A stretch of DNA of 64,000 nucleotides from the NCBI GenBank assembly GCA_964036045.1, contig OZ038384.1:19878500-19942499 (forward strand). Direction: 5' to 3'. Shown here piece after piece: positions 3,393 to 52,237 of this stretch; the stretch's first letter is position 1; each line of letters begins with the position of its first letter. The notes beneath the pieces are model-generated. The model was not told the origin of the DNA, searched no databases, and was given only the letters and a program-made list of their open reading frames with translations. This DNA comes from Eutreptiella sp. 'Long Island Sound 2002' (lineage: Eukaryota; Euglenozoa; Euglenophyceae; Eutreptiales; Eutreptiaceae). The position numbers and the translations under genes were made by a program.

Positions 3393-4586
3393 TTAGGAAC
3401 CATCCGTGGCCCTCATAGAGAACACAGCGTGATCATTAGACCCACCAGGGGCGAACTCGCCGAGATCCACCTCTTCCATGAGCAACTGCGCTAGGAAAGC
3501 GCTATGCTTCAGTGTCACAACCTCCGGATCGACCGGGGGTATTAGACTGGCGATATCGCTCAGGCGGTCGTCAGCATCAGCGAGCGGAGTAGAGACTGCT
3601 GGTGTCTCCGGCTCATCGGGGCACTCAGCACTCGTAGTGGTAACCGAAGAGTACTCAGATCTCTTCTTGAGATCATGGAGGGTAAGGCCCTTGTCTTCGG
3701 CCATCAACTCCTTGAGTACAACCTGATCAAGGTCACTCACGGGCACGGGGCTTAGAGCAGCATCTACGATGGATAGGAAACTGCACCATTCAGGGGCGGG
3801 CATGGTCTCCTGAGAGTCCTCGGGGACGTAGATGGGACCGTTGGGCAGTTCAGTCCTTCCCACGGTCATACGGTCCAAGAGGCGCCTCAAATAGGCGTGT
3901 TCACGTGTGGTACCCCAGTCGGGGGTGCACAGGACCACTCTCGCTCCTTCGAGGGCAATTTTGGTAATCACCTTGGCGAGCTGGGAGAAAGGCAGGTTTG
4001 CGTAGCACAACCCCATTGATTTCCGGTAAAAGCAGTACGCATGGTTTAGGTTCGGGGAGCAGTAGAGCTGCATCAGATGCTGCTCTTTACTCGCGAACAG
4101 TTCTACCTGAACCTCATTCAGGTCCAGCTGCAGGGCGACCAGTCCATTTTCCAACAGTGGCCGCACCAACTGATAGTTCTCAGTTCTGTAAGACCGGTTC
4201 ACGTAACGTAGACCGGATTTTTTTAGACCTGACAGCTCCAGAGGGACAGAGTATAGGCCACTGCCAAAATCGCAGTGAAGGGCGTAGGGACGTTGCAAGG
4301 ACAGCAACTTCACTTGGGGGTGGAAGCGCAGAAAATCCGTGCCAATGACAATGTCAAACACTTTGCAGTGCTGCGTCACCTCCTCATCGCCTAGACATTC
4401 AGTCACATCAACCCCCCCCAGGGAATGGATGGTCCAACCATCCCCTACCCTTATGGCCACTGTTTTGGTGTTCCGGATCTTGGCTTGTTTTAGCAATCTG
4501 CGGGCCACAATTGAGAGCGTGGCGCCCGTGTCCAAGACCGCTTTGTAAACCTGATCACCTATTTTGACGGTGATCAAGAAAACCAA
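3393..4586 (-). pseudogene. Element A aspartic protease plus methyltransferase-like domain
   Basis: Residues 1-110 form a retropepsin-type protease: AVLDTGATLSIVARRLL has the catalytic Asp-Thr-Gly, followed by a flap-like Gly stretch and IVIGTDFLRFHP. From about residue 145 (about 4150-3765) comes a second domain: VQVELFASKEQ, then CYANLPFSQLAKVITKI, ARVVLCTPDWG, and at its end APEWCSFLSIVD. The same order of landmarks (D/E-x-F-A, N-x-P-F, P-x-W, Trp-x-x-Phe-Leu) occurs in elements C, E and D at the same place. It resembles the Dam-like methyltransferase module of DIRS retrotransposons. Here NPPF has become NLPF, so activity is doubtful. The acidic C-terminus leads to the linker. Confidence 0.84.
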
Positions 4587-4858
4587 ATCTTCTTCCTCGG
4601 AGCCGCCCCCCTATTCCCCTTCAGGGAATTTCACTTCAAAGCCTGCCGCCTGCAGGCACTTAGAGTGCCAGTTGAGGCGGCGCTTCTTGGCGTTCTCGTG
4701 TCCCTTGTCAGTGCCACCGGCGCTGGGGGTAGAGGGTACGGTTCGGGGTGGGGAGTGCGGGGGTGCGGAGTTTCCTTGCCCTCCTCCAGGGTTACCTCCA
4801 CCGGGAGTTCCCCCAGGGGTACTGCCTCCCCCCCCTTACAGGCGTTCTTACGCCGTTC

Positions 4859-5260
4859 TTACTCGGCCTTCTTTAGCTTCTCGGACTCGCGGGGTTTTAT
4901 GTGGCACTCATCTTCGTAGTGCCTCATCTTCCCGCAGTAGCCACACTTGATAGTGCAGCGGAAGTGGTCTTGGTGTTTGACCTCCTGACCATCCTTGGTC
5001 TTATGCGTCCGCCGCAACTGGAGCATACAAGAGCTGCGTCCATCGCAGTCAGGGGCGTGACATGGTCCCCCCTTGTCGTCCGTACGCTGGCGATAAAAAA
5101 GATTCGGGGCTCCCTTGCCTTTGGCGGGTGGGGTCTCCTTCATATGCTTCAGTTGCCCTCCCTTACCCTTCCCAGGGTTAGAGGTGGGGTTGTGGGGACC
5201 TCCCTCCCTGAGGCCTTTCAGCAGGGGCCTTCCTCCGCAGATGTTTGCGCAGGTATTCAT
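4859..5260 (-). pseudogene. Element A Gag nucleocapsid with CCHC zinc knuckle
   Basis: This basic segment (133 residues) contains CGYCGKMRHYEDEC at 4945-4904, a canonical C-x2-C-x4-H-x4-C retroviral zinc knuckle that binds element RNA during packaging. The flanks are rich in Lys/Arg (KGKGGQLKHMKE upstream, ESEKLKKAE downstream). It lies between the capsid-like piece (5616-5317) and the protease, as expected for the C-terminal part of Gag. Frame breaks on both sides mean it cannot be joined to either neighbour without correction. The ordinary knuckle here contrasts with the C-x2-C-x11-H-x4-H finger in elements C and E. Confidence 0.78.
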
Positions 5261-5316
5261 CCATGTCAGAGTCGTTTTCCCTCTCCATGGCGAGTTAGAT
5301 CAGAAGATCGACCAAC

Positions 5317-5616
5317 TCATCGTAGGAAAGAGTCCGGGATTTCCTCTCGGGCAGCTGTGGGGAACTCAGGAAGTGGGGGTAGTTCCTCTATCTCCGTACA
5401 GACACTCGGGTCCGTTTCGTAGACTGGGTACATTTGTTCCAGTATTTTAAGGAAGTCTCCCCAACTGGAGCTGTTCCTGATGGCAGTTTTCACCTGCCGC
5501 TGAAGGAACTTTTTCTTGCACGACTTCTTGATGAGCGTGCACTTGGTCCGGACATCAGCATGTTGCTGTCCGGTGAGGAGTAGAAACTCCAAAAACTGTT
5601 CGGCCCATTCGGACAA
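5317..5616 (-). pseudogene. Element A Gag capsid-like segment
   Basis: The segment holds about 99 residues with a helical capsid-like pattern: WAEQFLEFLLLTGQ, then KKKFLQRQVKTAIRNS, SWGDFLKILEQMYP and a short acidic tail. This Trp/Phe/Leu spacing with a basic helix is typical of Ty3/gypsy Gag capsid C-terminal halves. It follows the N-terminal Gag segment in a different frame (shift near 5640) and precedes the zinc-knuckle segment. The assignment rests on position and amphipathic pattern, not a catalytic motif. Confidence 0.6.
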
Positions 5617-7735: not shown

Positions 7736-7745
7736 CTCCCCCTCT
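7736..7745 (-). promoter_or_regulatory. Polypurine tract of element E
   Basis: The minus strand reads AGAGGGGGAG immediately before the first base of the 3' LTR at 7735. Purine tracts in this place prime plus-strand DNA synthesis in LTR retrotransposons. It confirms the minus-strand orientation and the LTR boundary. Confidence 0.75.
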
Positions 7746-16102: not shown

Positions 16103-16142
16103 CTAGTGGATTTGCTCAAGGGGTTGCCCAAGGGCATTTTTC

Positions 16143-21121: not shown

Positions 21122-21655
21122 TGTAAGTGCGGCTAACCCCCATCTGCTCAGATTTTAGCAGATCTGCCCCAGATTGACTACATTTTTGGTCATTTTATTT
21201 GCTTCGGCGGAATCGCCGCCTCGCAGCTCAGTCTCAGGATCAGACCTATATATTTCTGATATGCCGGATCTGATTCCGCGGTCCATTCTCCGTAAATCCG
21301 CCGCGTTCCGATCATTTGCCTGGAATCGCCATTTGCCGCTGACGCGCGCTCGCAGGCCACTTCGGCCAAATATTTTTCACAATCGGATTTATATAAATCT
21401 TTTCAGACAGGTTTGGACACTCAGATGTACTTAGAAGGATCCGCATCAATTTTCTTCATAGACTGGGATTTTCTGCCGGATAACAATCAGCATGAATCTT
21501 GCTTCCGTTGTTGCTGCTCTCGCCTCCGTTGGTGTCCGTGGATCCGGTTCTACCCCCAACAGCAGCGTTCAGGTCGACTCCTCGCGTGCCTGCCCCACTG
21601 GTCTTGCCGGCCCCGAGCCCTCCGGCACCTTCCACAACCCAGGGCAGCACTTCCA
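21122..21655 (+). repeat. Element C 5' LTR
   Basis: It starts TGTAAGTGCGGC and ends GCAGCACTTCCA, 534 bp, matching 31427-31960. The last 164 bases encode the N-terminus of Gag (ATG at 21492). Confidence 0.96.
21388..21398 (+). promoter_or_regulatory. Candidate TATA box in element C LTR
   Basis: TTTATATAAAT lies 94 bp upstream of the gag ATG (21492), within the LTR; the 3' LTR has GATATAAAT at the same place. A second AT-rich candidate, TATATAT, is at 21247-21253. Position suits an LTR promoter giving a transcript that starts just before the gag ATG. Confidence 0.4.
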
Positions 21656-27617: not shown

Positions 27618-28077
27618 ACAGCACGCATTACCGTGTCACGATATCACGGCCTTTTCAGATCCGGCGCATGCTCATGAGATCTGCACCAAATCACTGAAAG
27701 TCGTGGAGAAAGTCACCGATCCCTCCTCAGGGAGTGTGAAACGGTTTGACTACACCCGACGTGTAAGTGGATTTCGGTTGATTCAGGGCATTAAGCGTCG
27801 AGATCCGGCCAAAACTCCACCCCTGCCGAAAGATTCCCTTATCATCCGTGACTGGACGTCCGATTATCTGCATGATGCCATGTTTAAAGAGGTCTTTGAG
27901 AATCTCAAATCCAAAGATGCTCACAAGGATGGCATTTTTTCTGAATATTCGTTGGATGGGGGGAAGCTGTGGATGGAGGGTAAATTGTGCGTACCAGACG
28001 CCCTGGCCCCCCGAGTGTTAAACTGGTGCACAAATGGGAGTCCCCCCACGCACATGGCCGTAGATTATGGTCGATGA
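27535..28077 (+). pseudogene. Element C Pol: tether between RNase H and integrase
   Basis: In the +1 frame the protein resumes as EQDRHVIIEWDQEEKKLIRRACMQC, which aligns with element E (GTSKDKDKVMEFDKEEQ to CLRC), then KLWMEGKLCVPDALAPRVLNW. The region between the RNase H Trp and this point, present in E, is missing. At about 28025 the frame returns to that of the first pol piece. No catalytic site lies here. Confidence 0.72.
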
Positions 28078-31426: not shown

Positions 31427-31960
31427 TGTAAGTGCGGCTAACCCCCATCTGCTCAGATTTTAGCAGATCTGCCCCAGATTGACTACATTTTTGGTCATTT
31501 TATTTGCTTCGGCGGAATCGCCGCCTCGCAGCTCAGTCTCAGCATCAGACCTATATATTTCAGATATGCCGGATCTGATTCCGCGGTCCATTCTCCGTAA
31601 ATCTGCCGCGTTCTGATCATTTGCCTGGAATTGCCATTTGCCGCTGACGCGCGCTCGCGGGCCAGATCGGCCAAATATTTTTCACAATCGGATTGATATA
31701 AATCTTTTCAGACAGTTTTGGACACTCAGATGTACTTAGAATAATCTGCATCAATTTTCTTCATAGACAGGGATTTTCTGCCGGATAACAATCAGCATGG
31801 ATCTTGCTTCCGTTGTTGCTGCTCTCGCCTCCGTTGGTGTCCGTGGATCCGGTTCTACCCCCAACAGCAGCGTTCAGGTCGACTCCTCGCGTGCCTGCCC
31901 CACTGGTCTTGCCGGCCCCGAGCCCTCCGGCACCTTCCACGACCCAGGGCAGCACTTTCA
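31427..31960 (+). repeat. Element C 3' LTR
   Basis: It is 534 bp, TGTAAGTGCGGC to GCAGCACTTTCA, with about 17 substitutions from the 5' LTR. It carries its own copy of the gag-start ATG (31797), which runs into flanking D sequence and stops quickly. Confidence 0.96.
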
Positions 31961-32833: not shown

Positions 32834-34360
32834 TTACGGTGCTACTGCAGCCACCAAATGAACCAACACGTCCTTGACATCCAAAGAAATGCTCTTTTTC
32901 TTCAGATAATCCCACGAATCCCTGGATGCGGCGAATCCCTTCCAACGGACTTTATAAAGCCTCCCCCCAGGCGTCCCCGGGTCCGGCGTGTCCGCCAGGA
33001 TTCTCTCGGCGGTGAACTCGTCGTCCTCACCCTCGTCGTCCGAGTCCACATCGCCGGCCGTAAACTCGAAGGTGATAGGACGTCCGCTGGGGTCTGGTGC
33101 TCGGGGACAAAGCTTGGTATGGTCGCGGTCCAGGATCTTGTTATCCCCAACAAGAACCGCATACACATCCTGCCCGACCTTCCGCACGATTACCCCCCGC
33201 ACATACCCAGACACCTGCCGATGCCTGGACAGGACATCCTTGTGGTGCCGCTCCACCCATACGGTGTCTTGGAGAGCATATTTCTGGACTTTTCCCCGCT
33301 TGAAGTAGTTGGCCCTCTTCTCATGCTCGTCCTGAAGTGCCTTGCACACCTTGGCTGCCGTGTCGTCCGCCTCAGCCATCATAGCGTTCGCATCTCGGGC
33401 CACTTTGCCATGGTTCAACCACGGGAGAGTGCGTGACACTCGATCCCGTAGGAACAGGATACGATGGGGCGACAGTCCAGTGGGTCCCGGAAGGTCGTGA
33501 TACGCCTGGAGCACTCTCCACAGCGAGTTATACCAGCTCCGGCCCGGTTCGTCAATGTGCAGCTGGCGGAACTTCTCGAACATCTGCCGCCCGGCCACCT
33601 CAGCCCAGCCATTCGACCGGCTGTGGTACGCCACGGTCTTGGCTTGCCGAATCCCCATGTGCTTGCACATCGTCTTGAACCACGTCCCCACAAATTGACT
33701 GCCCCGATCGTTGCAGATGACAGCTGGGACATCGAAAATCGTCAGCCAATGCCTGATCATGGCATTAGCGGCGGTCTTGGCCTCCAGCCCCACTCCATGT
33801 TTGTCCTTCTTGTCCTTCTTCTTGGACTTCTTGCCCGGGACCGCCACGATATACCCGCTGTGCCTGTCCACCGCCAGGATGACACAGTCGTAGGTCTCTC
33901 CGTCCACGGTGACCTCAGGCATGGCGAACAAATCCATGGCCACGGACCGCATAGGGGCTTCCGGTATAGCCGTGTACACCGGGTTGCCAGCCGTGGAGTG
34001 GTTGGGGCTCTTCGTGGCCCGACACACGGCGCAGTCGCTGCAGTACTTGTCCAGGAGGGCGTAGTACCCCGGTGGGAACTTGAAGCGCCACTCCAGGTCC
34101 TGCTGCATCTTGTCCCGACCAGGATGCATGAGCTGGGCGTTATGCCCTTGGTCAATGAGCTCCTCCATTCGGTTCTCAGGGACCAATAGCTTGTCCTTGA
34201 GGAATGGCTTATCCCCATCCTCGGTCAAGCCCTCAGGCCATTCGTCGTCCGACGGGGCGCTCATGGCATTCCAGTACTTGCTCCAGTGGTCGGATGCCGC
34301 ATAGTCATCCGACCAGTCCTCTGTGAGCACCGACCTGACTAGCTCTACAGGGGCCACCAT
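32834..34360 (-). CDS. Element D integrase and chromodomain
   Basis: 508 residues, open from the codon after TGA at 34361-34363. Integrase zinc finger: HNAQLMHPGRDKM (His pair) and CSDCAVC. Core: SVAMDLFAMPEV (Asp), VICNDRGSQFVG (Asp), SNGWAEVAGRQMFEKFR (Glu); all three catalytic residues remain. Then GLSPHRILFLRD and the C-terminal barrel (YALQDTVWVERHH). The chromodomain near the end reads EFTAERILADTP, LYKVRWKGFAASRDSWDYL, with the aromatic cage positions kept. This is the best preserved integrase of the window. Catalysis looks possible, but translation would require passing the upstream TGA. Confidence 0.93.
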   Translation of the reverse strand: MVAPVELVRSVLTEDWSDDYAASDHWSKYWNAMSAPSDDEWPEGLTEDGDKPFLKDKLLVPENRMEELIDQGHNAQLMHPGRDKMQQDLEWRFKFPPGYYALLDKYCSDCAVCRATKSPNHSTAGNPVYTAIPEAPMRSVAMDLFAMPEVTVDGETYDCVILAVDRHSGYIVAVPGKKSKKKDKKDKHGVGLEAKTAANAMIRHWLTIFDVPAVICNDRGSQFVGTWFKTMCKHMGIRQAKTVAYHSRSNGWAEVAGRQMFEKFRQLHIDEPGRSWYNSLWRVLQAYHDLPGPTGLSPHRILFLRDRVSRTLPWLNHGKVARDANAMMAEADDTAAKVCKALQDEHEKRANYFKRGKVQKYALQDTVWVERHHKDVLSRHRQVSGYVRGVIVRKVGQDVYAVLVGDNKILDRDHTKLCPRAPDPSGRPITFEFTAGDVDSDDEGEDDEFTAERILADTPDPGTPGGRLYKVRWKGFAASRDSWDYLKKKSISLDVKDVLVHLVAAVAP

Positions 34361-35839
34361 TCATTGCTCGAGGGTTTCCTCTCGAATAGCTTGGACTCGG
34401 GCGCCCCGGAACTTGGCCAGGTCCGTACGGTTAGCCATCACCACAAAACATTTGACCCCCTCCTGCTCCATGGCCTTCTCCATCTCGATGATGCGTTTGT
34501 CCTCCTCAGTCTCCTCGGCGTCCCCATGGCTGGATATGTCCATCCAGGCCTTGCCCGCGGGGTAGGCCCATCGACTGAGGCAATCCGCCACAGTGTTGTC
34601 CTTCCCTGGGACGTACACGACGCTGAGGTCGAACTTGGCGAACGTCTCATGCCATTGAGTCCTCCTTGCCGCCGGTCCCGAGGGGGTGTCGACGTGCTCC
34701 TTGTGCCAGCTCTGCAAGGACTGATGGTCTGTACAAACCACCAACGGTTGCAACCCGATGTGGCCAGACCACTTCCTGAGCGCACAAACAATGGCATACG
34801 TCTCCTTCTCCCTCGCGGTCCAGGTTCGGCGTTGGCCCTCGGCCAGGATCCGGCTCCAAAACGCCACGGGTACGTGTGACCCGTCGTCCCGGATCTGGTC
34901 GAGGACTGCCCCTACAGCATAGTCCGAGGCGTCCGTCCGTAGCACGAATCCCTTGTCCGGGTCAACCAGGAATAGCCCCAGCTGCCCCAGAAGTCGCGCC
35001 TTCAGGCGGCTGAACGCATCTTCGGCCTCAGGGGTCCAGGCAAGCTTCTTCTTGCTCCCCTTCCGGCCATCGAACTTCCCCACCTGCAGCATCTTGTGCA
35101 GCGGCCCCGAGATTTCAGCATACATCCGGACATAGCTCGAATAGTAATTGCAGAACCCCATGAAGGACCGGAGTTCGCTGATGGTCTGGGGCTTCTCCCA
35201 GTGGTGCAGGGACGCCAGCTTCCGGGGCATGGGACGGCGTTGCCCGTGACCAACCACGTGACCCGCGAACTCCACTTCCTTCACGAAGAGTGAGGCTTTG
35301 CTGGGTTTGCACACCATGTTGTGCTTGTCCAGCTCGCTGAGCACTCGGCGCAGATCCTTCTCATGCGCTTCGATGAGCTCGTCCTCAGTCATGTTCTCCG
35401 TGCCGGACTTGATGATGATGTCATCCACAAAGGGATCGGCACAGTCCCGGACAGGACCGAGTAGGTCCTCCATCATGCGCTGGAAAGCGGCGTTGCCATT
35501 CTTGGCACCCATAGGCACCACTTTCCACTGCATGGGCCCCAGCGGCGTCGACATCGCTGTGCAGGGTCTGGAGTCCGGATGTAGCGGCATCTTGTGATCG
35601 CCGTGTTTCAGGTCTAATACCATAAAGATCCGCTTTTTTTGTTGCTTTTGGAGGATGGTGTCGATCAGAGGAAGCGAGTACGAGTCGTGCTCAGTTTGCT
35701 CGTTCAAACCTCTGTAATCCACCACCAACCTCCACTCGCCCTTCTCCTTCTTGGGCACGATAAAGGCTGGGCTGGCCCACTCACTGTCGGAGGGTTCCAT
35801 CCAGCCCCGCTCAATAAACTCGGCCAACAACTTCTTCAT
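34361..35839 (-). CDS. Element D reverse transcriptase and RNase H
   Basis: 492 residues from the first Met; the frame is open further, back to TAG near 36021, and includes the RT N-terminal fingers (KIYRHREYQL). RT motifs: WRLVVDYRGLNEQ, FMVLDLKHGDHKMP, VVPMGAKNGNAAFQ and FVDDIII at 35420-35431, both Asp present. RNase H: VLRTDASDYAVGAVL, AREKETYAIVCAL (Glu), VCTDHQSLQSW and VYVPGKDNTVADCLSRW. The connection to integrase is interrupted by TGA at 34361-34363 (GAG CAA TGA ATG), after which the same frame continues. Confidence 0.95.
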   Translation of the reverse strand: MKKLLAEFIERGWMEPSDSEWASPAFIVPKKEKGEWRLVVDYRGLNEQTEHDSYSLPLIDTILQKQQKKRIFMVLDLKHGDHKMPLHPDSRPCTAMSTPLGPMQWKVVPMGAKNGNAAFQRMMEDLLGPVRDCADPFVDDIIIKSGTENMTEDELIEAHEKDLRRVLSELDKHNMVCKPSKASLFVKEVEFAGHVVGHGQRRPMPRKLASLHHWEKPQTISELRSFMGFCNYYSSYVRMYAEISGPLHKMLQVGKFDGRKGSKKKLAWTPEAEDAFSRLKARLLGQLGLFLVDPDKGFVLRTDASDYAVGAVLDQIRDDGSHVPVAFWSRILAEGQRRTWTAREKETYAIVCALRKWSGHIGLQPLVVCTDHQSLQSWHKEHVDTPSGPAARRTQWHETFAKFDLSVVYVPGKDNTVADCLSRWAYPAGKAWMDISSHGDAEETEEDKRIIEMEKAMEQEGVKCFVVMANRTDLAKFRGARVQAIREETLEQ

Positions 35840-36022
35840 GGCCTCGGCCCGATCGCCCTGAAGTTGGTACTCCCGATGACGATAGATCTTGGGGTTCGGC
35901 TTCAGCTTGATCCTCGCTGTGCCAAACCTCCCACGATCTGGAGGGTTCTTGTTGGCGACGCCACTGAAAAGCCGCGGATAGGCATTGATCAGCCTCTCCT
36001 TCAGCTCGGCGACCTTCGGGTT

Positions 36023-36841
36023 CTACTGGGCCTCTTCAGCCGCTTGCTTCGGTATCGATACAACCGACTGCACTGCGGTATAGGCCTCTTCTGGGTCCGA
36101 GTCCGACTTCTCCTCGTCCGATATGCCGTCTTCATCGTCGTGGGGTGCACTTCCCACCGATAATCTTCGGAAATTTGCGGCGTCGGCCTGGTTCTTGTCG
36201 CTATCGGCCCCCATTCTTGGAAAATCCAACGTCGGCAGGTCTGACCCACCCGGACCATCGTATTGGTCCGCGATGTGATCCATGACCCTCGCCACGAACT
36301 CATCCTTCTCGTACTTGCCGGTGACGGACATCTTGTCATCCCACCAATGCGGAGACGTGACCATGTTGCGCCTCTTCTTGGCTGCCACACGGTCGTGCAT
36401 CCCCATCCGCATGTAGTTGCTGACGTCGTTGATCTCGGCGTGGGACAGGATGCCAATGCCATCCACTGGCTGATCCGTCCCCTCCTTGGGCTCAAACATG
36501 ACCCGCATGGGCACCGCCTCCACCCTACGGACGAATGCTTCATCACCAGTGGGCTGGGCGTGCGCCCCATCCACCAGGAAAGCCTTGGTACCCCACGCTT
36601 GACCCGGGGAGGGCATTGATACACCCTTGGCGTCAATGAACAGCTCCTCCTCTGGCCCGAATGACATCTCGTTCAGGGTGATGGAGTCCAGCGTCGACTT
36701 GAGACCTTCCAGCGGACATGGGGTGGATCCTATGCCGGTTATTACCAGGATCCCCTTCGCCGTATCCGCGACGATCTTCTCCACCGTACGTCTGGTATTG
36801 TCCAGGGAGCCATGCCAATACATGGGCCCCCACTCCTTCAA
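36023..36841 (-). pseudogene. Element D methyltransferase-like domain, C-terminal half, and linker
   Basis: In frame after TGA near 36844. Early part: KEWGPMYWHGSLDNTRRTVEK, KGILVITGIGSTPCPLEGL, EELFIDAKG, then QAWGTKAFLVDGAH. These match by order the NPPF helix, the Pro-x-Trp strand and the terminal Phe-Leu-Val-Asp-Gly of the domain in elements C and E, but the NPPF core is replaced by HGSL, so catalysis is unlikely. An acidic linker with EEKSDSDPEEAY leads to TAG (about 36023), beyond which the RT frame continues. Confidence 0.68.
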
Positions 36842-36844
36842 ACC

Positions 36845-37240
36845 TCAATGCCTGTGCCAGGCTGAGTCTCCTCGATGCCAATGCCTCCTACACTTCCGCA
36901 AAAGTGGGGCATCCCGGGAAGCGAAGACGTCTGTCTCGGGCGCTTCGGCTCCCAGCGTCTGGATCATCCTGTCATACACCTGCGGCGCCATTCCATACTC
37001 CGTGAGCTGAACTCCGCGGTCTCCTCTGGACTTGGCACCCACAGCTTGTACCGCTCGGACGATCCGATCCTCTTCCTCAGCTTTCCATTGGGATGTTCTG
37101 CATGCATAGTCCGTGGACAGCCATGTAAGGCATTCATCATCCTCCCGGACCAGCGTCGCACGATGGGGAAGGGCTCCAATGGCGTTTCCCACCATGAAGT
37201 CAGACCCCATGATCATATCCCAATCCGTAATGTCGGCCAC
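36845..37240 (-). pseudogene. Element D protease end and methyltransferase-like domain, N-terminal half
   Basis: This frame opens with DWDMIMGSDFMVGN, the second protease landmark (Ile-Met-Gly-Ser-Asp), and ends with PETDVFASRDAPLLRKCRRHW, the D-x-F-A start of the methyltransferase-like domain. A run of six A near 37253-37258 marks the frameshift from the main protease frame. It stops at TGA about 36844 and the domain goes on in the same frame. Confidence 0.66.
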
Positions 37241-37775
37241 ATAGAAGTTCCCGAAAAAACGTGCTTCTCTTCGCCGAATCAGGGCGTTTCAAGCGCTCAT
37301 GTTCCCAGACTTCCATACTCATAGTGGCCTCATGGGTGCCACCACCCATAATCTCTCCATTGGCCACCTTCAGGCGTACCGGTCTAGGGCTGGGCTGCAG
37401 GGATTCCTCCTTGAACAACCCTCTCCGGACCAGGCTCACCTGGGCACCCGTATCCACTAAAACATCCACCACCAACTCCTCTTGTCCGCACCGTACAAGC
37501 ACACTCAAGTGCAACTGCCGCTCGTCACAGTGCGGTGTATGGACGACTCTCACGGCATGCAACTCTAGCACGTCCGGGTGCATCAGGACTTCGAGGGTAT
37601 GGTCACGGATGGTGTAGATCTTGGGCCGGTCCTGCCCGTCCACGGGGCTCTCCGTGGTCGCTCCTTCCTTCTTGCCACGTCCCTTGCCCACATAAACTTC
37701 CCTTGGCAGGGCGCTCCAGGGGTTGGGAGTGGCAAAACCCAGTGGTTTTGGCTCTTCTGGAGCCTTCTTCGGCAC
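37200..37775 (-). pseudogene. Element D aspartic protease
   Basis: The 191-residue frame contains ELVVDVLVDTGAQVSLVRRGLF with the catalytic Asp-Thr-Gly-Ala, preceded by a strand (RQLHLSVLVRCG) and followed by a flap-like Gly run (GEIMGGGTHEATMS). This is a standard retropepsin. The last about 20 residues are out of frame beyond the A6 run near 37255. Protease cleaves Gag-Pol in the particle. Confidence 0.82.
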
Positions 37776-38190
37776 CCGATGTGCGTTCGCTTTCTCTGGG
37801 ATTCCACTGATTTTCGGAGGATAGACCTCCGAGGTCCCACTCCCGTGGGGGCTCCTCTAGACATGGCCTGCGCAGCTCCCTCCTGCTGCGATCCGCTCAG
37901 ACTTTGTCCACCACGTTGCTGGGCTTTGAGTTCCTCCAACGTCCTCAACATGTCCTCAGCAACCTCCTCGATCGACCTCACGCGTCGGTCTGGACCGGGT
38001 CCTGCACCATAGCCTTTTCCTCCGCCTTTCCCTTGGCCCTTTCCTTGGCCTTTACCACCGTCTCCGCCCTTTGCCTTCCAATCGGCAATTCGTCGCTCCT
38101 TGGGCTTCCTGTCGGGATGGGCGGCGAAGTAGGTCTTCTTGTCCTCCTCATATACCTTGCAATGCCGGTGGTCATGTGCATGGTTGTTCC
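37583..38190 (-). pseudogene. Element D Gag C-terminal basic tail
   Basis: This frame reads NNHAHDHRHCKVYEEDKK, then GGDGGKGQGKGQGKGGGKG, a Gly/Lys-rich nucleic-acid-binding tail, and EEVAEDMLRTLEELKAQQ, a helical stretch. It continues, in a shifted frame, the CWVC motif of the previous segment. Together they look like a Cys-x2-Cys plus His-rich finger that has lost its frame. Confidence 0.5.
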
Positions 38191-38900: not shown

Positions 38901-40937
38901 TCAGTCCTCCACCAGCTTGAGGCTTCTTCGGTACTTGCGGATGTACCGATTCCATTCTCGGACCCTCAGTTCCCCGCGCTCCAGCGGCAGCGGAATGGAC
39001 CACAAATCCTCCAACTTCCGGTTGGGGGTGTCCACTCTCTCTTCGTCCTCCAGCCACTGGAGGCAGGCCTGCTCCGTCTGGATCACTCCCTCGCGGATCT
39101 GATCCCTGAGCTCCTCCTTCAGGTCCTGCGCCAGCCTCTGTGGGAATGTCCGACATACCCACTTGTCCCTTCGCGCTCCCCTCATCTCGCCGACGACCTC
39201 CTCGGCGAAGTCCTCCCAATCCAGGATGAAGTCGTCCAAGTTGGAGGGGTTGCCATCGTCGTAGGGGATTTTGATTCCCCTGAGGTCGTCAATCCTGATG
39301 GCATCTCCGACGTCCGCAGCCACCACTCCACCGAGACGGATACCACCTGTGGCCGGGGGGTGTGAGTACACTCCCCGTACATCCCTCTCCTCCATGGAGT
39401 GCGGTCCAGTTGGGCCTGAACCCATGGGGTTTGGAATGCGGGAAGGACTTGCTCCACCGGCTGTCCATATCCCCGTGTTGGGGTCCTTCACCCACAAGTT
39501 TCCACCTGGATGGCCTCGACCATGTCCGTCGGCGCTTCCCATGGTTCGCCCCTGCATGGTCTGGCTCTGGATCTCCTCTTCCGCATAAACTGCATGGGCA
39601 GTCGTAGTGGTCGGTAGATCCTGGGCGGCATGGGACATCTGTACCATCAGGCTCCCGGGGTCCGTGGTTGCGTGCAATTCCCGCATGGACCCAGACGGTG
39701 CCGTTTCTTCCCCGAGCATTGTGGATTCTCTGGACATGGGAACAAAAGGCAGCGGACCCGGGTCAACACGCGGAGGCGCGTAAGGTCCCTCCGCAGGGCC
39801 GCCCATGGGTTTCTCCATGGCGCTCCTGAGGGTCTTAACCCGCTCCACCAGCTCTGCCGCGGCCGGCTTTGCCGGGAGCTCCGGACCCGAGGCGAGGGGT
39901 TGTAACTCCTCTAGCCTTTTCAGGCGTCCCGACATGTCCTCCACCAGGTGGAGGAGGCTGTCCACCACTCGCTGCTGCTTCTGCAGGGCCAGCTCCAGAT
40001 TCTCCCGGTACCGGTCCTGTTCCACTCGCAGCTCCGCCATGTCTCTCTCTGCTGCTGACTGGTCATCCAGGATCCCCGCAACGTCCTCCTCTAGACCGTC
40101 CTCCGCGTTGTCCAGGCGGTCGAGGTGCTGCACGATGGCGTCCATCCCCATCTTTGGGTATTTGCCGATGAGGAAAGATACGTGCTCGCAGTGGCACTCA
40201 GCGTGCTTTCCACCAGAACCGGCGCTTCCCACGGTTCCCGGCGCCTCGGACTCCTCCGCCATGGGTGTGTCGCCCATGCTATCCCGCGTTGGCTCCGTGT
40301 GCCGGGCCACAGGCGCCGTTCTGGCTCTGGCGGGCCTCTCCAACGCCTCGGCGTCATGCTCCAGGCTGGGTTCTGGGGTCGTGTTCGCCCTTGTGGGCGG
40401 TCTGGCCGTCTCCTCCGACTCCGAAGGTTGCTCATAAGCTGTCCGATAGCCCTCGGAGTGCCCCTCGGAATCTGCAGCTGACCACAACCTGACCGGGCTG
40501 GGATCCGTCTCCATCGCCCTGGCCTCCGCCGCGGGTTTTGGGGAACCGCGCTTCCGGTAACGCCGAGCCCTGCCGTTGCTACCAGTCTCCTCCAACTCCT
40601 CCGCAGCGGAGCGGAGATTGCAAGCCTTGCGGCATTGCCTTTCGCACATGGAGGCCAGGTCCTCCATGTCCAGCCCATGTCCTGCAAGGGCTCTCCGTTC
40701 TGAGCATCTTCGCTCTTCTCGGGCTTCCCAGTCGGGCATCGACTCCACGGACTCGATGATCTGCACCCGGGGCGTCCTTGGGCAGGGCTCCTGAGGGCCC
40801 AAGTCCCCGGTGCGGCGGTAGGGGGCAGGTACTCCTCTGCTACCATAAAGAAGGTCCCTACCAGGACCGGCCCCTGCTGTTCCCCTTCCACCATAACCTG
40901 TCACTCCCAGGGTCTTGCTCCTCACCAGGGTCTGCAT
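38901..40937 (-). CDS. gag: Element D Gag, starting inside the LTR
   Basis: 678 residues from ATG 40937, which is 92 bases inside the 5' LTR. The frame crosses the primer-binding site as LLYGSRGVP. A long coiled coil lies in the middle (about residues 280-345: VEQDRYRENLELALQKQQRV, LLHLVEDMSGRLKRLEEL), consistent with assembly. The C-terminal part has capsid-like helices (LDDFILDWEDFAEEVVGEMR, AQDLKEELRDQIREG, WNRYIRKYRRSLKLVED). It stops at 38901; further Gag-like sequence lies downstream in other frames. Confidence 0.8.
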   Translation of the reverse strand: MQTLVRSKTLGVTGYGGRGTAGAGPGRDLLYGSRGVPAPYRRTGDLGPQEPCPRTPRVQIIESVESMPDWEAREERRCSERRALAGHGLDMEDLASMCERQCRKACNLRSAAEELEETGSNGRARRYRKRGSPKPAAEARAMETDPSPVRLWSAADSEGHSEGYRTAYEQPSESEETARPPTRANTTPEPSLEHDAEALERPARARTAPVARHTEPTRDSMGDTPMAEESEAPGTVGSAGSGGKHAECHCEHVSFLIGKYPKMGMDAIVQHLDRLDNAEDGLEEDVAGILDDQSAAERDMAELRVEQDRYRENLELALQKQQRVVDSLLHLVEDMSGRLKRLEELQPLASGPELPAKPAAAELVERVKTLRSAMEKPMGGPAEGPYAPPRVDPGPLPFVPMSRESTMLGEETAPSGSMRELHATTDPGSLMVQMSHAAQDLPTTTTAHAVYAEEEIQSQTMQGRTMGSADGHGRGHPGGNLWVKDPNTGIWTAGGASPSRIPNPMGSGPTGPHSMEERDVRGVYSHPPATGGIRLGGVVAADVGDAIRIDDLRGIKIPYDDGNPSNLDDFILDWEDFAEEVVGEMRGARRDKWVCRTFPQRLAQDLKEELRDQIREGVIQTEQACLQWLEDEERVDTPNRKLEDLWSIPLPLERGELRVREWNRYIRKYRRSLKLVED
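40834..40845 (-). promoter_or_regulatory. Primer-binding site of element D
   Basis: The minus strand reads TGGTAGCAGAGG directly after the LTR end (CTTCTTTA). It is the same 12 bases as in C and E and encodes Gly-Ser-Arg-Gly in the gag frame. Confidence 0.88.
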
Positions 40938-43180
40938 TTTCCAACAAAAAAATAGAAAAAAACTCCTTCACACACAGATCCTTGCAATACCCAGCACAAT
41001 CCAAATCCAAATCCAAACTGCGGGCTTCCGTTCAGCACACCGGTTGTCTCACGGTGGCGGGCATGTACAAGAATTGCACCAAAGAGGAAAGCCCTGAAAT
41101 TGGCATATGCAGACAAATAAAGCAAAGTTGGGGAAAGATGGAAACGTACACAATCACAGCCATAGGCCCCTCATTCCCTGGACTCAAGACCTTCCCTTGA
41201 CTCGCCAACATGATGCCCTGAACCCAGTCAAAGAGCATGGCTAAATGCCATGTGTCAATAGTCACTACATAAACCCCAAAAATGTGTTCACTCCCAAGCC
41301 TCTAAATCCTAGCCCAATAGGCAAGGTGGCGTGTCATGGCCCAGAGTGGCACTCAGGACCATGCCCTACCCTGACATAACCTTGGTTGGACTTGGAGTCG
41401 ATTGGGCTTGGGGAACTGCCCCATGAATATGACCTCACAACATGGCAAAATCAGGCAAATCACACCATTTTGCCCAAAATCAATTATATACTCAAAAATG
41501 CAAACGGCAAATATTCCAATGCTCCATGCATGTGTCAAACCGGAAAGTAGCATACCAGGGTGATATAGACCAAAGGTCCATGCGCAAGAATATCCCATCA
41601 TTGGCCCCGAAATCCCTCAGGTTTTGTACATGACATGCTTCACAAGTCAACTCATGAATTTGAGACCTGAATTTGTGAGGCCTCGTGTGCCACGCCAAAG
41701 TGACCACGTGATCCGGCATATGGTGAGGTACAACACCGAAGCATATGCCGACATATAAGCAACATACCATAGTTCACAGATCTCTAGGCACTTTACTGTT
41801 AGCCGACCAGTTGAGCACATAAAATACAAAAGTGAGCATAAAATGAGGTCAAAAACGTGCAAACAATGCCAAATTCAAGATAATTACAATAGTATATACC
41901 TTCGCTCACCCATGGTATCAACATATGATTCAAAACACAATTGCTTGGGACTATTTGCAAAAGATCCCCCCACTTGGATCCCCTCATGAACGCATGGGGA
42001 CACCTTCGAACCTCCTCCCAACATGCAACATGAAAATGGGAAAATTGATAGAGGCGCTTGTGGGTCGCTCCGTAAGCCCTCCCACATGCACTATATGAGC
42101 GATAGACTTAGTCTACGCTATGGAGCTCACCATTGGGACATCGGCGAAGCCCTTGTCACGTATGACTCCATATATCTTCCTACAAACGGAGATATATAAC
42201 ATGGACGTGAGCATATCGAAGCACATACCATGCATATAACACATACCCTCAAAAAGTGGCTCCCACCATGGTATGCCATGCCCCTCCATGGACAAAACTT
42301 CACGTTAAAAATACGCGGGAACCCAAGGAAAGTATCTATGCAACCCCAACACTCATGCGGTACACTCGACAGTCGCAATAAAATATTCGGTTGCACGGTC
42401 CAAGAGTTATATATCACTTTCTACCCTCTTGACCATTATCCCTTGCTACACCGGGCATGTGTACACATCAAAGGCGTTCCATGCTTTCCAAAAGTAAGTT
42501 GAGACCAAGGCAGTTTCAACCCATTTCTCGAAATTGGTATTCCTCGCCGTGAGCCGGAGATATGATTCTTCAAAGTGGCCTCACGAATCACTTTTGTTTC
42601 GACTATGTCTCCAAGCAAAATGAAGGGCACAACAAAAGTAAGGTTGATTCGTGATTGGGGAAAACTGTCGGACCACTCGAGATTCATCATATCAAGTGCG
42701 GCGATGTCGAAGTCAAAAATCCGATTCTGAAAGTCTGAAAAAATCGGATTAATTTTGCGAGTGTATAACCTGAAAATTGCGGAAGCAACGAACCCTTTAC
42801 TGATGAAATCTGACCCTTCATCGGGGTTTCCGCCAAAATATCTGTAAATAACAGTTAACCAATCGGTTACCGCAAAATCGCGAGCCAACTGACAGTCGCC
42901 GATACAATGACAATCAGAACGGAAGGCGGAAAACCTACGGAAAAATTATGATAAAAAAACCCTGTTGATTCCTGATATTCTGATATATAAATCTCCGCTG
43001 GCGGCGCCTCGGTATTGAATATGGCCGCTCATAGCCGGAATGGCCAAACATATCACACTATCACATCGGGTTATGTCAGGTGGATGGGAGAGTATGATAT
43101 CAGCCAATGGCGGCTTGCCGGCACATAGATACACACCCCAAGTGACCCAAAGATGGCCACGGGGGTCGGAACCGGCTTCA
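40846..43180 (-). repeat. Element D 5' LTR
   Basis: 2335 bp, collinear with 19283-21121 plus 31966-32439. On the element strand it starts TGAAGCCGG and ends CCTTCTTTA. LTRs of this length are long for Ty3/gypsy. The last 92 bases encode the start of Gag. Confidence 0.92.
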
Positions 43181-43184
43181 CTAC
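43181..43184 (+). repeat. Target-site duplication of element D (right, CTAC)
   Basis: This repeats 19279-19282 immediately outside the LTR end. Confidence 0.7.
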
Positions 43185-47219: not shown

Positions 47220-48053
47220 TCAAAGCCAAGGGTATATGTAGGCCGTAAACTTCTTGGGAATTTTCCGCAATTTGAATTCTGAGCAGATCTTGTCTGAAAT
47301 GGGTTGTGCCACAATTGGAGCTTCTTCTGGTGGTTGCAAGTCTTCCTTGGTGACACAGTCTTTGATCAGCGAGAGCTCACGGTCAATCTCAGGGTGATTC
47401 TTCAGGAACTTGATAAAAGTGTCCGTGTACCCATGGATGAAGCTTGAAGCTGGCTCCCGTTTGTCTTCTTCTGGACCGAATCCTTCCCATCTGCACAGAA
47501 AGTACCACTTGTTTGGAGCATTCTTCTTATAATCAAGGATCCCCTCCAACTCAAAACTGCTTGTGACCATCTTTCTGTTGCTCAGGTACTTCGAAGTGCA
47601 ATAGGGGGGCTTGTAGTTGCCCTTGGGGCAGGGTACTTCGGCCTTCAAACGGTTACGATGTGCTTCTTGATGGCTGCCTGGCTCAATTTCAATGTTGAAT
47701 GTAGTCTCACTTAGTTGACTCTTGACTTGGAATGGGCCTTCCCACAAGGGTAACAATTTGCTGTGGTCCTTCAGGCTGTCGTCCGACTTAAAAAGCCAAA
47801 TTCGCTGGCCTTTCTCGGAGGGCTTTCCTTGCGCTGTTGCCTGATTTTTGAATTTCAACCAATCTGCTTGACTCTCCACTTTGGCTTGGATCCACTTGGA
47901 ATCCAACTCCTTGATCTTGTCAAACCATTGTGATGCGTCGTAGCACTGCCTTGGATGGTACATCACTGGTCCAGGACCCATCTTCTCACGACCGAAAACA
48001 AGCTCATTCGGGCTTAATCCAGTGTAATTGTTGGTCCGATGGTATCTCCTCAA
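47220..48053 (-). pseudogene. Element E integrase C-terminus and chromodomain
   Basis: 277 residues from the first Met after TGA 48156: GLSPNELVFGREKMGPG, a linker helix, LPLWEGPFQVKSQLSETTF (C-terminal barrel) and the chromodomain FELEGILDYKK, KWYFLCRWEGFGPEE. The helical tail FIKFLKNHPEIDRELS and an acidic/basic end finish at 47220. It is in one frame throughout, unlike its duplicate at 9023-10298, and in frame with the core upstream. Confidence 0.9.
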
Positions 48054-48155
48054 GACACAGTAAATTGTCTCCCACCAATTGTAGTCCTTTCCAGTTGCCA
48101 GGAATTTTCTCAGAATATTGATAAGAGTTCTTCCAGCTTGTTCAGCAGAAAGGGC

Positions 48156-48425
48156 TCAATGGTCATAGACTCGGGCACGGAGGTGATGAACTCCCAATGG
48201 GGCACACATGTTCTCCCACCAGGTCCAAATGAACTCCTTCCCACTGTCCGTCGGAATTTCACTGGGGACATCCCAGTTACTCATCCACTGACTTGCAGTC
48301 CACTTGGCAGCCATTTTAGAGGTAAGATGCTTCGTGTTGCAAGGGATGACCTGGATGTAGCCACTGTGGCAGTCTTGAATTAACAAAACCCCATCGATTG
48401 GCTTCCTCGTGTAGAGACATTCCAC
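48156..48425 (-). pseudogene. Element E integrase catalytic core
   Basis: The segment reads GVLLIQDCHSGYIQVIPC and IPTDSGKEFIWTWWENMCA (second catalytic Asp). Just upstream, between TAG and TAA in the same frame, is TADVFELGQ with the first Asp. Just downstream of TGA (48156-48158; CGA in the left copy) is AEQAGRTLINI with the Glu. All three residues therefore remain in a frame split by three stops. Confidence 0.85.
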
Positions 48426-48470
48426 TTAGATTTGTCCCAACTCGAAGACATCCGCCGTCACCTTGTCTAA

Positions 48471-49280
48471 CTACCTATCAGGAATTGGTAATCCCTTCAG
48501 TAGTCCTTCTGCCTTTTGGATCTTGGGGATGTTCGCCTGACATTGCTTGCATCCTTTGGCAACTCGTTCACAGGCTCCCTTGAGGTCCCGAGTGTACACT
48601 CTGTGTCGAAGCTCCTGCTGCAGAACACGAGAATGTCCGTGGGATGTCTCATTTCGATGCCAATGTTTGACATATTTGTCGATTAGACAGTCAGGGATAC
48701 AAATCCGTCCTTGCCAAAATAACTTGTCACCTTGGAGCTTGAAATCAGCCATCTCCTCAGAGTCGTAAGGCTTGTTCCCTTTTAATTTGTGGTATACAGC
48801 TCCAAAGAACCTGTCATCCTTGTACATCTTCGTCGAATCCACATAGAGGAAGGAAGTTTCCTTGTCTTTTTCTTGTGGAGGGAGCTTCGATTTGGCCTTG
48901 GATCTCGTCAAAGGAAACACACTCAGGAGCGGCAGCGACGACTCAGAGTCAGAATGTACCCTGTCAGTCTGATATGCCTTCGTAATTTCCTTGCATCTGA
49001 CCAATTCCACCTTCATCGAATTTTTAATCGAACATCGGAGACAATGTTTCTTGATCAGTGCTTGTTCCTCCTTGTCGAACTCCATCACTTTGTCTTTGTC
49101 CTTCGATGTCCCATGAAAACTCACTTCAGAGTAAGCCTCCGAGGCTGGGTAGGCCCAGCGACTCAAGGCGTCCGCCACTGTATTGTAGCGACCCGGGATG
49201 TAAGTGACATGGAGATTGAATTTGCTGAGAAATTCATGCCAACGGCCTCTTCCCCCAGCCGGTCCACCAAGGGTATCCAC
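48471..49280 (-). pseudogene. Element E RNase H end, tether and integrase zinc finger
   Basis: Starts MDTLGGPAGGRGRWHEFLSK, then VTYIPGRYNTVADALSRWAY, the last RNase H landmark with its Asp. A tether of about 120 residues follows with FDKEEQALIKKHCLRC. The integrase finger is HWHRNETSHGHSRVLQQ to CERVAKGCKQC (His-His-Cys-Cys). It stops at TAG near 48466 within the sequence PDR-stop. This segment shows what element C has lost at its RNase H end. Confidence 0.88.
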
Positions 49281-49406
49281 ATGTTCTGTCCTCCAGCTTT
49301 CCAGTGACTTGTGGTCAGTCAGTACCTCAACACGATGACCCAGAATCCAACCCTCATAGCGCCGTAGGGGACCGAGAATTGCGTAGGCTTCTTGTTCCCT
49401 TGGACT

Positions 49407-50021
49407 TCAATTTTGCTGTCTTGTTGTAACCTTGTGAGACGGGAAAGCCAGGGGGTGATGGTGACCTTCATGGTCGACTTGTTTGATCGTAGCACCAATG
49501 GCGTAAGGACTGGCGTCTGTACGAATATAAAAAGGTCTTCCATCAAACGGCGGAGTCTTTAATGTAACCACATTTGCCAGTGCTTCCTTGAGACCAGTAA
49601 AAGCCTCTTCACATTCTGGCGTCCACTTGATCTTGACTTGAGATCCCCTCTCTCCTTCTACTTTGCCAACCTTGAGTAACTCTGTCAAGGGACCAGAATA
49701 CTTGGCGTAGAGAGGAAAGAACTCGTGGTAGTAATTGCAGCAGCCTAAAAAGGCACGAAGCTGCGTGATGGTTTTAGGCCTTTCCCAGAGCTGCAGGGCA
49801 GCCATTTTTCCGAGGGCCGGTCTTCTTGTCCCATCTTCCAAGATAGAGCCGCAGAATTCCACACTCTGGAGGAACATTTTGCCCTTCTTGGTTCCACACA
49901 TGAGCTTCTCTTGGCGAAGGACATCGAGAACTGTGCGGACTTGTTCTTCGCGCAACTTCAGGCACTCTGGGAGCCCCCACCCGGATAGCTGGGAGGCACA
50001 GTGCAAAAAAATTTCAGGCAC
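49407..50021 (-). pseudogene. Element E RT thumb, connection and RNase H start
   Basis: RT thumb: LREEQVRTVLDVLRQEKLMC and FLQSVEFCGSILEDGTRRPA; connection: RAFLGCCNYYHEFFPLYAKY. RNase H starts FYIRTDASPYAIGATIKQV (first Asp). The frame ends at 49407; the following RNase H part (REQEAYAILG, VEVLTDHKSLESW) is in another frame near 49400-49300. The first about 20 residues encode the 56-bp insertion at 49957-50012 and are not native. Confidence 0.85.
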
Positions 50022-50023
50022 TC
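49957..50023 (+). mobile_element. 45-bp insertion with A7 tail and 11-bp direct repeats in element E RT
   Basis: TTCAGGCACTC at 49957-49967 is repeated at 50013-50023. Between them lie 45 bases ending GTGCAAAAAAA(T). On the element strand the RT frame reads correctly up to GAGTGCCTGAA, is broken in the insert and resumes after the second copy. The pattern of target duplication and poly(A) tail is that of a LINE-mobilised short transcript or a very truncated SINE, inserted on the plus strand. Confidence 0.65.
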
Positions 50024-50653
50024 ATCAAAGTCTTTTCCCAACGGCGTGGCAATCAGAAGGTCGTCGATGTAGATGCTGCAGAATTCTTGTAAACCCAGAG
50101 CCTTGTGCTTCTGAAATAAAATAGTCTCCATCATCTTCTGGAACATCGACGGCGCATTCTTCAGACCCATCAGCATTACAGTCCCCTGGACATTGCCACA
50201 GGGCGTGCATGTTGCCGTCAAATGCCTGTCCATCTTTCCAAGGGGCATCTGATGAAAGCCATGGCGCAAATCCAGCACACTGAAGAGCTTGCCTTTCGCC
50301 CTCTTGGCGATCACCTCCTCGATTAAGGGCAGGGGATGCGCGTCAGGTACTGTGACGGCATTCAGGGCTCTGTAATTCACTACTAGGGGCCATGCATCTA
50401 TGCTGGATTGGTCAGCAGGTGGGAATTTTGGCACAGTAAATGGTGCTGAACACCACTCAGAACTCATGCAGCCCTCCAACCAACCGAACTCATGAAGATT
50501 GCGCCCAATAATCCTTCGCAGGGCAACTGCTTTGGTGCCGTGAAGATAGAATGGACGTTGCTCGCGAACCTTTGAGCCTTGGATTATCTCAATCTTGGCC
50601 TCCCCATTTTCACATCGAATTCGGGGGTTTTTCCACAACTTCCCACTCAGCAC
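49958..50653 (-). pseudogene. Element E reverse transcriptase fingers and palm
   Basis: The segment carries SSEWCSAPFTVPKFPPADQS, WPLVVNYRALNAVT, VLDLRHGFHQMPL, VMLMGLKNAPSMFQ and the catalytic YIDDLLI at 50060-50071, both Asp present. It is in the same frame as the linker upstream (TAG near 50663). It ends in sequence from the 45-bp insertion. Element C, otherwise closely similar here, has Tyr in place of the second Asp. Confidence 0.93.
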
Positions 50654-50662
50654 GTCATCCTT

Positions 50663-51217
50663 CTAATCTTCGAACACTGCGTCCCTTCTTGCAGATATCT
50701 TGTCTCCGTCGACCTGATTCCCACATTTAATCACCGACATTATGTCCACCACTTTGCGAATTGTTGGTCGTGGTCTCATTTGCTTGGCCACTTCATTCCA
50801 AACCTCTTCGTCGCATTGTTGGCAAATGAAGCTCACCTGAGCTCGCTCCTCAGTGGGGTCCCACCAATGAAGGGGGTCCACGAATGTCTTGAAGGGACGG
50901 TCGAACGAATTGAGCTGCATTCCTGTCAATTCAGGCGAGATTCTTGGAGATTTGTCCTCATGCTTGCCTGAAATGTTGACATTTTTGACTTGATTCTTGT
51001 CTGATGGGGACGAAATGGAATGGATGGAGGCGTTCTCTTGATTGACGCCGATTGTCCTTCCCTTCTTCCGCGACGATGTGTCGAGATTCCGCTCTCGATC
51101 GTCTCGATCCACCTCAATTCTGTCGATTCTTGAGGAATTTGATATGACCTCTTCTGTTCCCATCTCACTGTCATCTCGCCAATAATCTCCCAGATTCCCG
51201 TCAACTAAGCACGCCAA
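50663..51217 (-). pseudogene. Element E Pol linker between methyltransferase-like domain and RT
   Basis: It begins ACLVDGNLGDYW, the end of the methyltransferase-like domain (compare LAFLVDGKL in C), after TAG at 51233-51235 in the same frame. The rest is a charged linker (DRIEVDRDDRERNLD) leading to the RT N-terminal extension (FKTFVDPLHWWDP, VAKQMRPRPTIRKVV). No catalytic motif is seen. Confidence 0.7.
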
Positions 51218-51232
51218 CGTGCTCCACGAACG

Positions 51233-52237
51233 CTATGGCAAAGGTTTGCCATTGTCTTCGCAATACAGGTGCACTCCTTTGTGAGGTAATTCGACAATGT
51301 CGATCGAAATGTCCATAATGTCCTTGAACCAAGTTTGTTTTGGCCAATTGGGGACGATTGAAATAGCCTTTGCGTCGGATTGCTTCAGCTTCTGCACCAC
51401 ACGAGGAAAAACCTCGAAGGGCGGATTGATCCATAGAGGTTCAGACCAGTCATCACTCCAGGCATCGTTGTAGAACTTCGGAAATCTTTTATTCTTTTTG
51501 TTTGCAAAGGCATCAACTTGAGGACGAAAATTGTGGTTCTTTTCAAAATAATCCACCAGAATGTCCCGCCATTTTTCGACGACGCAATAGCAAACTGACT
51601 TCCACTTCTTCCAGTTCAATGATTCCACCTTTCCTTCGGCGAATTGCTCTTGATTCCTTGTCCATTCCTGCGCGTCTTGCTGAATTTGCAGCTTATTTCG
51701 CTCCTTGAAGTGTCGAACACTCTTGGTGTATGGGTGCAGATAATACAGTTCGGACGGGTTGCTGGCTGACGGATCTTGGAGGAAGCATGTCCTGTGTCCC
51801 GTGGGCGACACACGATGAGCGTGAAGCCAAGGTTGACCGAAGAATAAATCATACTTCATGGTAGCTTCATAGAACTTTCCAGAGAACCACTCCTCCGTCA
51901 CCGTCTCCACACTCCAAACAGAGTGTTTCACCAGTCTGACCGCCAAATCTGCCTCCCTGTCGCCACGGTCAAGGCGATGTCGGATCACTCCCTCCAGCTG
52001 GACAGGTGTCGAGGACGCCTTCGCCTCATCCTCCTGCAGAAAGCCTTTCCTCACCACATTGACCGCTGAAGCATTGTCAATCAGGCAGTTGGCAAGTTTA
52101 ACCTTACCATCTGCCGTCCCGACCTGGATCCAGCAGACAAACTGTCGCTGTTTGCCTCGACCGACAGCGCTGAGGACCGAGGCAGGGTAGAGGAGGCCAG
52201 AGGAACGCGCCAGATGATCCCAGCAACGTCCATCCAC
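51233..52237 (-). pseudogene. Element E aspartic protease plus methyltransferase-like domain
   Basis: Protease: LANCLIDNASAVNVVRKGFL (Asp-Asn-Ala where Asp-Thr-Gly is usual) and YDLFFGQPWLHAHR. Methyltransferase-like domain at about 51560-51235: KWRDILVDYFEKNHNFRPQV, DAFANKKNKRF, LWINPPFEVFPRVVQKL, AISIVPNWPKQTWF. NPPF is the kind of Asn-Pro-Pro-Tyr/Phe motif that binds the target adenine in N6-methyltransferases. It stops at 51233 and the last strand follows in frame. Conservation with element C across this domain is as strong as in RT, so it was under selection while the families were active. Confidence 0.84.

Follow-up and report, generated by a model that had tools for sequence, protein, structure and literature searches.

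A Dam-like adenine methyltransferase domain between protease and reverse transcriptase in Ty3/gypsy retrotransposons of Eutreptiella sp.

Introduction

In retrotransposons of the DIRS group, a methyltransferase domain is placed after reverse transcriptase (RT) and RNase H, and insertion is not known to leave a target duplication. According to excerpts of PMC3783388, the DIRS Pol protein carries a methyltransferase domain with PF05869, i.e., a Dam-like adenine methyltransferase domain inside a retrotransposon Pol. Cytosine methyltransferases have been reported in gypsy, DIRS and long interspersed nuclear elements, with Dam-like ones known from DIRS (PMC5890265, in excerpt), and a review assigns DAM to DIRS, and DCM to both Ty3/Gypsy and DIRS (PMC6338049, in excerpt). 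Here we analyzed a 64,000-nucleotide stretch of DNA from Eutreptiella sp. 'Long Island Sound 2002' (the window; assembly GCA_964036045.1, contig OZ038384.1, positions 19,878,500 to 19,942,499), 64 kb within a 2.28 Gb assembly, which holds at least four Ty3/gypsy elements, labelled A, C, D and E. Each of them encodes one homologous domain of ~140 residues on the protease side of RT, in the order protease-domain-RT, which belongs, as a divergent member, to the N6-adenine methyltransferases of the Dam/phage type.

The locus can be compared with four kinds of described systems. DIRS elements, in the excerpted text of PMC3783388, lack an aspartic protease and a DDE integrase and have a tyrosine recombinase instead, whereas the gypsy elements described here have long terminal repeats (LTRs), a target duplication, an rve integrase and the domain before RT. 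KnitGypsy-Dnmt3 and SymbioDIRS-Dnmt3 are similar in that a DNA methyltransferase was captured into Pol, and KnitGypsy has a gypsy-type Pol whose domain shows a nonsynonymous to synonymous rate ratio (Ka/Ks) of <0.2; however, their enzymes are C5-cytosine methyltransferases, structurally unrelated to Dam (excerpts of PMC5890265). Phage N-6-adenine methyltransferases (PF05869, TIGR01712, phrog_111) share sequence profile and fold matches with the domain, but they are phage proteins and not Pol parts. Sola1 from Ectocarpus also has a predicted N6A or N4C methyltransferase on a transposon, which, in contrast, is a separate opposite-strand gene, with a ParB-like domain, in a DNA transposon (PMC12477816, in excerpt). 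No description of a Dam-like domain between the protease and RT of Ty3/gypsy elements was found in a search that did not reach most subscription papers, and an earlier description is possible. Elements and enzymes of these classes are both known; their combination and the place of the domain appear to be new.

A shared domain on the protease side of RT

The four copies of the domain in the window are as follows.

25263..25679, plus strand: element C Dam-like domain, NPPF kept (P0002 residues 305-443)
51236..51673, minus strand: element E Dam-like domain, NPPF kept (phrog_111 2.1e-6; profile without E 1.8e-34)
3741..4193, minus strand: element A Dam-like domain, NLPF in the window copy (P0006 residues 140-290)
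36560..37000, minus strand: element D degenerate Dam-like domain, HGSL for NPPF, one in-frame stop

The preliminary description, made from the letters alone, had proposed a common series of landmarks between protease and RT in all four elements, and reading the sequence located the series in each of them. Element C reads DAFAN...WINPPF...VPLW...FLVDG, and element E reads DAFAN...WINPPF...VPNW, followed after an in-frame stop by ACLVDG, so that WINPPF is kept in both, as had been proposed; the tail of the E domain extends beyond the stop of the window copy to ~51197. Element A reads ELFAS...YANLPF...TPDW...LSIVD, and element D reads DVFAS...YWHGSL...AFLVDG with one in-frame stop. The D-x-F-A motif or a close variant was retained at the domain front across families, and NPPF or a near variant in all families except D. 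The catalytic tetrapeptide of PF05869-type enzymes follows the rule (D/N/S)PP(Y/F/W). By family, the tetrapeptide was NPPF in C, E and M, NPPW in S, NAPF in the L-type and HGSL in D. The A-family proteins had NPPF in 73 of 121 cases and NLPF in 4, while 33 were unmatched by the expression used. The assignment of NLPF to element A was therefore correct for the window copy and did not hold as a family trait: A as an NPPF-less family was ruled out, and NLPF is copy-level variation. The NAPF family (L001-L004, L006-L008, P0018) gave the top Pfam Dam scores despite its NAPF. For the P-numbered proteins from the protein searches, an origin in the same species is a guess based on identity.

Homology was examined using hmmsearch on the 942 six-frame open segments of the window of at least 40 amino acids, with profiles built without the tested family. 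These leave-family-out profiles recovered C at 1.1e-41, E at 1.8e-34 and A at 9.8e-20, and with C and E both excluded from the profile, C was still found at 4.9e-24 and E at 7.1e-19. Element D, which was in no profile, was recovered through its broken window copy at 7.9e-7 to 1.1e-5 across five runs. The next-ranked segments had values of at least 0.17 and were partly the other halves of E and D themselves. With each of two profiles, none of 100 runs on residue-shuffled segments scored as high as D. Furthermore, 8 of the 20 D loci were open as found. Their full-domain scores were 41.5 to 43.6 bits (~1e-14 with 8 sequences as the database) and, together with the profile matches, indicate that D belongs to the domain family too. 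Homology of the domain thus holds for six families (A, C, E, and the L-, M- and S-types) plus the degenerate D, in agreement with the earlier proposal of a domain shared by all four gypsy families of the window.

Assignment to the Dam/phage-type adenine methyltransferases

The Pfam Dam, TIGR01712 and phrog_111 models matched the domain in several gypsy families. The curated cut-off of PF05869 (28.1 bits) was passed by L039 (36.4), L043 (32.1), L044 (29.0) and P0018 (41.7), which places three gypsy families of this genome above it, E's among them through the E-related copy L044. L045 (24.8), P0011 (15.9) and L048 (25.3) stayed under it, L048 with its neighbours scored 28.4, and the E-family protein P0013 had no PF05869 match; A-family places appeared in the PF05869 search of the genome as L045-L047. 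Because the window copies lie under this cut-off, we filed the domain as a Dam-like divergent relative and not as a PF05869 member. The phrog_111 profile, annotated as 'DNA methyltransferase', matched the window copies of E (2.1e-6) and C (1.8e-3). The best TIGR01712 (phage N6A methyltransferase) score among 7 proteins was 36.5 bits, below the equivalog cut-off of 97.05, and window C and E had no TIGR01712 match at E<=0.05. The matches span approximately positions 10-109 of 165-169 in PF05869 and TIGR01712, and a tail of the form LP...Y..D...P...W...LVDG, common to the gypsy families, lies outside the part matched by the phage profiles.

The AlphaFold2 model of the element C domain had a predicted local distance difference test score (pLDDT) of 85 and a predicted template modelling score (pTM) of 0.82. 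In a Foldseek search, its best named match was a phage N-6-adenine-methyltransferase (E 3.6e-7, template modelling score 0.67), and a protein without a name matched at 1.6e-7. The domain of element C is accordingly predicted to adopt a class I (Rossmann) methyltransferase fold, and the non-Rossmann fold that would have contradicted the preliminary description was not the outcome. Its Dam-like identification of the domain agrees with the three curated profile collections and the modelled fold of C. An A-only model had a pLDDT of 52 and was not used. A sequence search of the Protein Data Bank with P0004 and A1 returned no relevant chain, and the weak A1 matches were to eIF3 subunit L (E of at least 0.09).

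The C model also showed weaker resemblances to CAPAM/PCIF1, KsgA/Dim1, M.TaqI and T4 Dam. An enzyme acting on RNA rather than DNA, placing N6-methyladenosine (m6A) on genomic RNA or its cap, would fit the top VIA-align rows, occupied by CAPAM/PCIF1, which methylates the cap adenosine, and by RNA adenine methyltransferases, as well as the PCIF1-like viral proteins among the BFVD matches. An orchid Ty3/gypsy group with an m6A RNA demethylase ORF (open reading frame) has also been described (PMC9289625, in excerpt). However, both the sequence profiles and the best named Foldseek matches are those of phage enzymes that methylate adenine in DNA, and we consider an RNA substrate unlikely.

Conservation of the domain and the D family

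The domain is more conserved between families than the spacer that follows it. Between the C-family protein P0011 and the E-family protein P0013, identity was 75/143 in the domain, 46/172 in the following spacer and 117/174 in RT. Window E compared with L044 had a ratio of nonsynonymous to synonymous divergence (dN/dS) of 0.25, and five L-type pairs with dS >0.1, all including L006, had values of 0.16 to 0.31. The remaining low-divergence pairs gave higher and uninformative values. Among 30 C loci, 30 codon changes were synonymous and 1 was not; these loci were ranked by protein score, so the counts are no fair selection test.

The loss of NPPF in D, which had been noted for the window copy, extends to the family: all 20 loci (L049-L068), the window's own included, read HGSL, in a set ranked by an HGSL-holding query. 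The view of window D as merely a decayed copy was ruled out by this shared tetrapeptide, with the same ranking in mind. As NPPF is absent in all 20 loci while the frame is kept, the D-family domain is likely a pseudoenzyme in an amplified retrotransposon, judging from its sequence. In the 8 open copies, the N-half of the domain, which lies outside the query, had codon changes of 12 synonymous to 11 not, similar to the protease stretch (57:47), and the spacer had 7:9 in the 7 copies in register. The neutral expectation is, as a rule of thumb, ~1:3 synonymous to not. Against this rule the D frame looks kept, and the domain is not distinct from the spacer. An apparent contrast between domain and spacer (10:40, Fisher 0.012) was rejected, as it came from a single copy that was out of register.

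These observations bear on the possibility that no family has an active enzyme any longer and that the fold is kept for nucleic acid binding or as a spacer between protease and RT. The HGSL of all D loci with their persisting long frames, the similar codon ratios of the D domain N-half and protease stretch, and the NAPF of the L-type are consistent with this explanation. On the other hand, C, E, M and most readable A-family proteins retain NPPF, which would be needless for a mere spacer, and the in-register counts of the D spacer do not support better keeping of the domain than of its surroundings there. We regard general loss of activity as improbable. The D family itself suggests that at least one lineage retains the fold without NPPF.

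Trees of RT and of the domain gave the same groups (A+S, M+L, and E+C+C2). In the domain tree, 1 of 5 inner branches was starred, and D was a long unplaced branch. Since the two trees agree, the domain was probably inherited together with Pol, as far as the sequences indicate, and one acquisition before the lineages split is the simplest reading. The trees cover the families described here and no reference Ty3/gypsy or DIRS element, so that a second acquisition, or descent from DIRS elements, is possible instead. The searches gave 26,727 candidates for C, of which 150 were scored and 43 lay in open frames of at least 1700 amino acids, and 13,093 candidates for D, of which 150 were scored and 41 lay in frames of at least 1600 amino acids. 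Both families have probably amplified recently.

The elements carrying the domain

Element C is the clearest element of the window, with 534-bp LTRs, a target duplication, a primer-binding site and an integrase ORF.

21122..21655, plus strand: element C 5' LTR (96.5% identity between the two LTRs where aligned)
31427..31960, plus strand: element C 3' LTR
21117-21121 and 31961-31965: element C target duplication, 5 bp, GGGAT
21656..21667, plus strand: element C primer-binding site TGGTAGCAGAGG, directly adjoining the 5' LTR
24351..27617, plus strand: element C pol ORF, in the order protease-like region, methyltransferase, RT, RNase H
26397-26921, plus strand: element C RT within the pol ORF (Pfam)
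27144-27530, plus strand: element C RNase H within the pol ORF (Pfam)
27984..29201, plus strand: element C integrase ORF (rve, Pfam), apart from the pol ORF in the window copy

The 12-mer TGGTAGCAGAGG is common to C (21656, plus strand), D (40834, minus strand) and E (55301, minus strand), with 3 matches against 0.01 expected, and presumably pairs with initiator tRNA-Met. The rve match of C (3.3e-7, 30.9 bits) is under the Pfam cut-off of 32.6. Element C (21117-31965) is inserted in the 3' LTR of element D (19283-32440), and the 5' LTR of D represents the unoccupied site.

The coding pieces and LTRs of the other elements are the following.

3393..4610, minus strand: element A protease + methyltransferase ORF (Asp_protease_2 7e-6)
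868..3195, minus strand: element A RT + RNase H ORF (RVT_1 1.7e-28)
37203..37856, minus strand: element D protease piece (gag-asp_proteas 7.1e-6)
34364..36022, minus strand: element D RT + RNase H (RVT_1 6.6e-25)
32837..34360, minus strand: element D integrase + weak C-terminal chromodomain (H2C2 3.3e-6)
40846..43180, minus strand: element D 5' LTR, ~2.3 kb
19283-21121 + 31966-32440, minus strand: element D 3' LTR, in two parts around C (self-comparison 95.5% and 92.6%)
49961..50662, minus strand: element E reverse transcriptase piece (RVT_1 1.2e-18)
47223..49406, minus strand: element E pieces with the end of RNase H, an integrase zinc finger and a weak chromodomain

Assignment to Ty3/gypsy follows from the LTRs, target duplication and primer-binding site of C, and from the order RT-RNase H-integrase, which Pfam gives for C, the C-family protein P0011 and D. 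The protease was called by Pfam in A and D and read by eye in C (CDNGSEVN) and E. As to the chromovirus character assumed in the preliminary description, a chromodomain was listed in two C-family proteins, P0009 and P0011 (Chromo 2.7e-6 in P0011), and was weak in D (0.0047) and E (0.015), with none seen in A; in D, this match and rve (8.9e-5) are both under the Pfam cut-off. Membership in DIRS was ruled out by the rve integrase and 5-bp target duplication of C, and the ORFs scanned had no Pfam match to a tyrosine recombinase or to a C5-cytosine methyltransferase of the DNMT3 type. The spliced leader of dinoflagellates had 0 exact matches, and a dinoflagellate host is thus not supported.

Some further features were observed in the window. 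The region 7498-10298 contains a fragment related to E, matching its 3' part over 1656 bases at 96.9%, and a second piece of 238 bases that matches 55519-55756 at 89%. The regions 10207-19637 and 43019-46518 are rich in G+C (~0.56-0.68), show a strong skew between strands and contain open frames that overlap one another; a Pfam scan of eight ORFs from these regions gave nothing at E<=0.05. A repeat pair of unexplained nature, 81% identical, lies at 44034-44638 and 59684-60290.

Proposed function and implications

Several points weigh against the domain being an inherited and active adenine methyltransferase. Window C is under the PF05869 cut-off (16.0 bits, E 0.01), and window A, E and the C-half of D have no PF05869 match at E<=1. 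An earlier set of 50 shuffles with one of the two profiles gave a best score of 22.0 bits versus 21.0 for D, and the direct profile comparison of A and the L-type was weak (47%). The structural neighbours that are RNA enzymes and the NAPF and HGSL variants are of the same kind. With motifs this short, the Pfam results could be taken to mean that the resemblance arose by chance or reflects an ordinary Ty3/gypsy linker. However, this explanation is refuted for A, C and E by the leave-family-out profiles, the curated-model matches, the fold match and the agreement of the trees, and for D the 8 tested open copies all passed the profile; it is very improbable overall. No match to a standard gypsy linker was found, and the preliminary description was right in substance.

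We hold with moderate confidence that the domain represents a divergent N6-adenine methyltransferase of the Dam/phage type, that a group of Ty3/gypsy elements inherited it within Pol, and that it acts in the following way. The domain would be made as part of Pol and packaged into the particle, where it would use S-adenosylmethionine to methylate adenines in the cDNA of the element itself while reverse transcription proceeds or shortly afterwards. Such methylation may protect the cDNA from nucleases or silencing by the host, or label new insertions. In D, where the catalytic tetrapeptide is lost though the family still amplified, a structural or binding role of the domain is probable.

A broader proposal is more tentative. 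The elements may represent a long-lived Ty3/gypsy superlineage defined by a pre-RT adenine methyltransferase, which would place N6-methyladenine (6mA) on cDNA in the particle as a self-mark versus host defence or for chromatin steering at insertions, with the young and abundant D sublineage as a pseudoenzyme kept in frame. If the adenine methyltransferase reading is true, base modification can be a lasting component of an LTR retrotransposon. Families with NPPF, NAPF and HGSL coexist in one genome, and the 6mA of their copies is readable from long-read data, so that the question of why retrotransposons carry methyltransferases would become testable.

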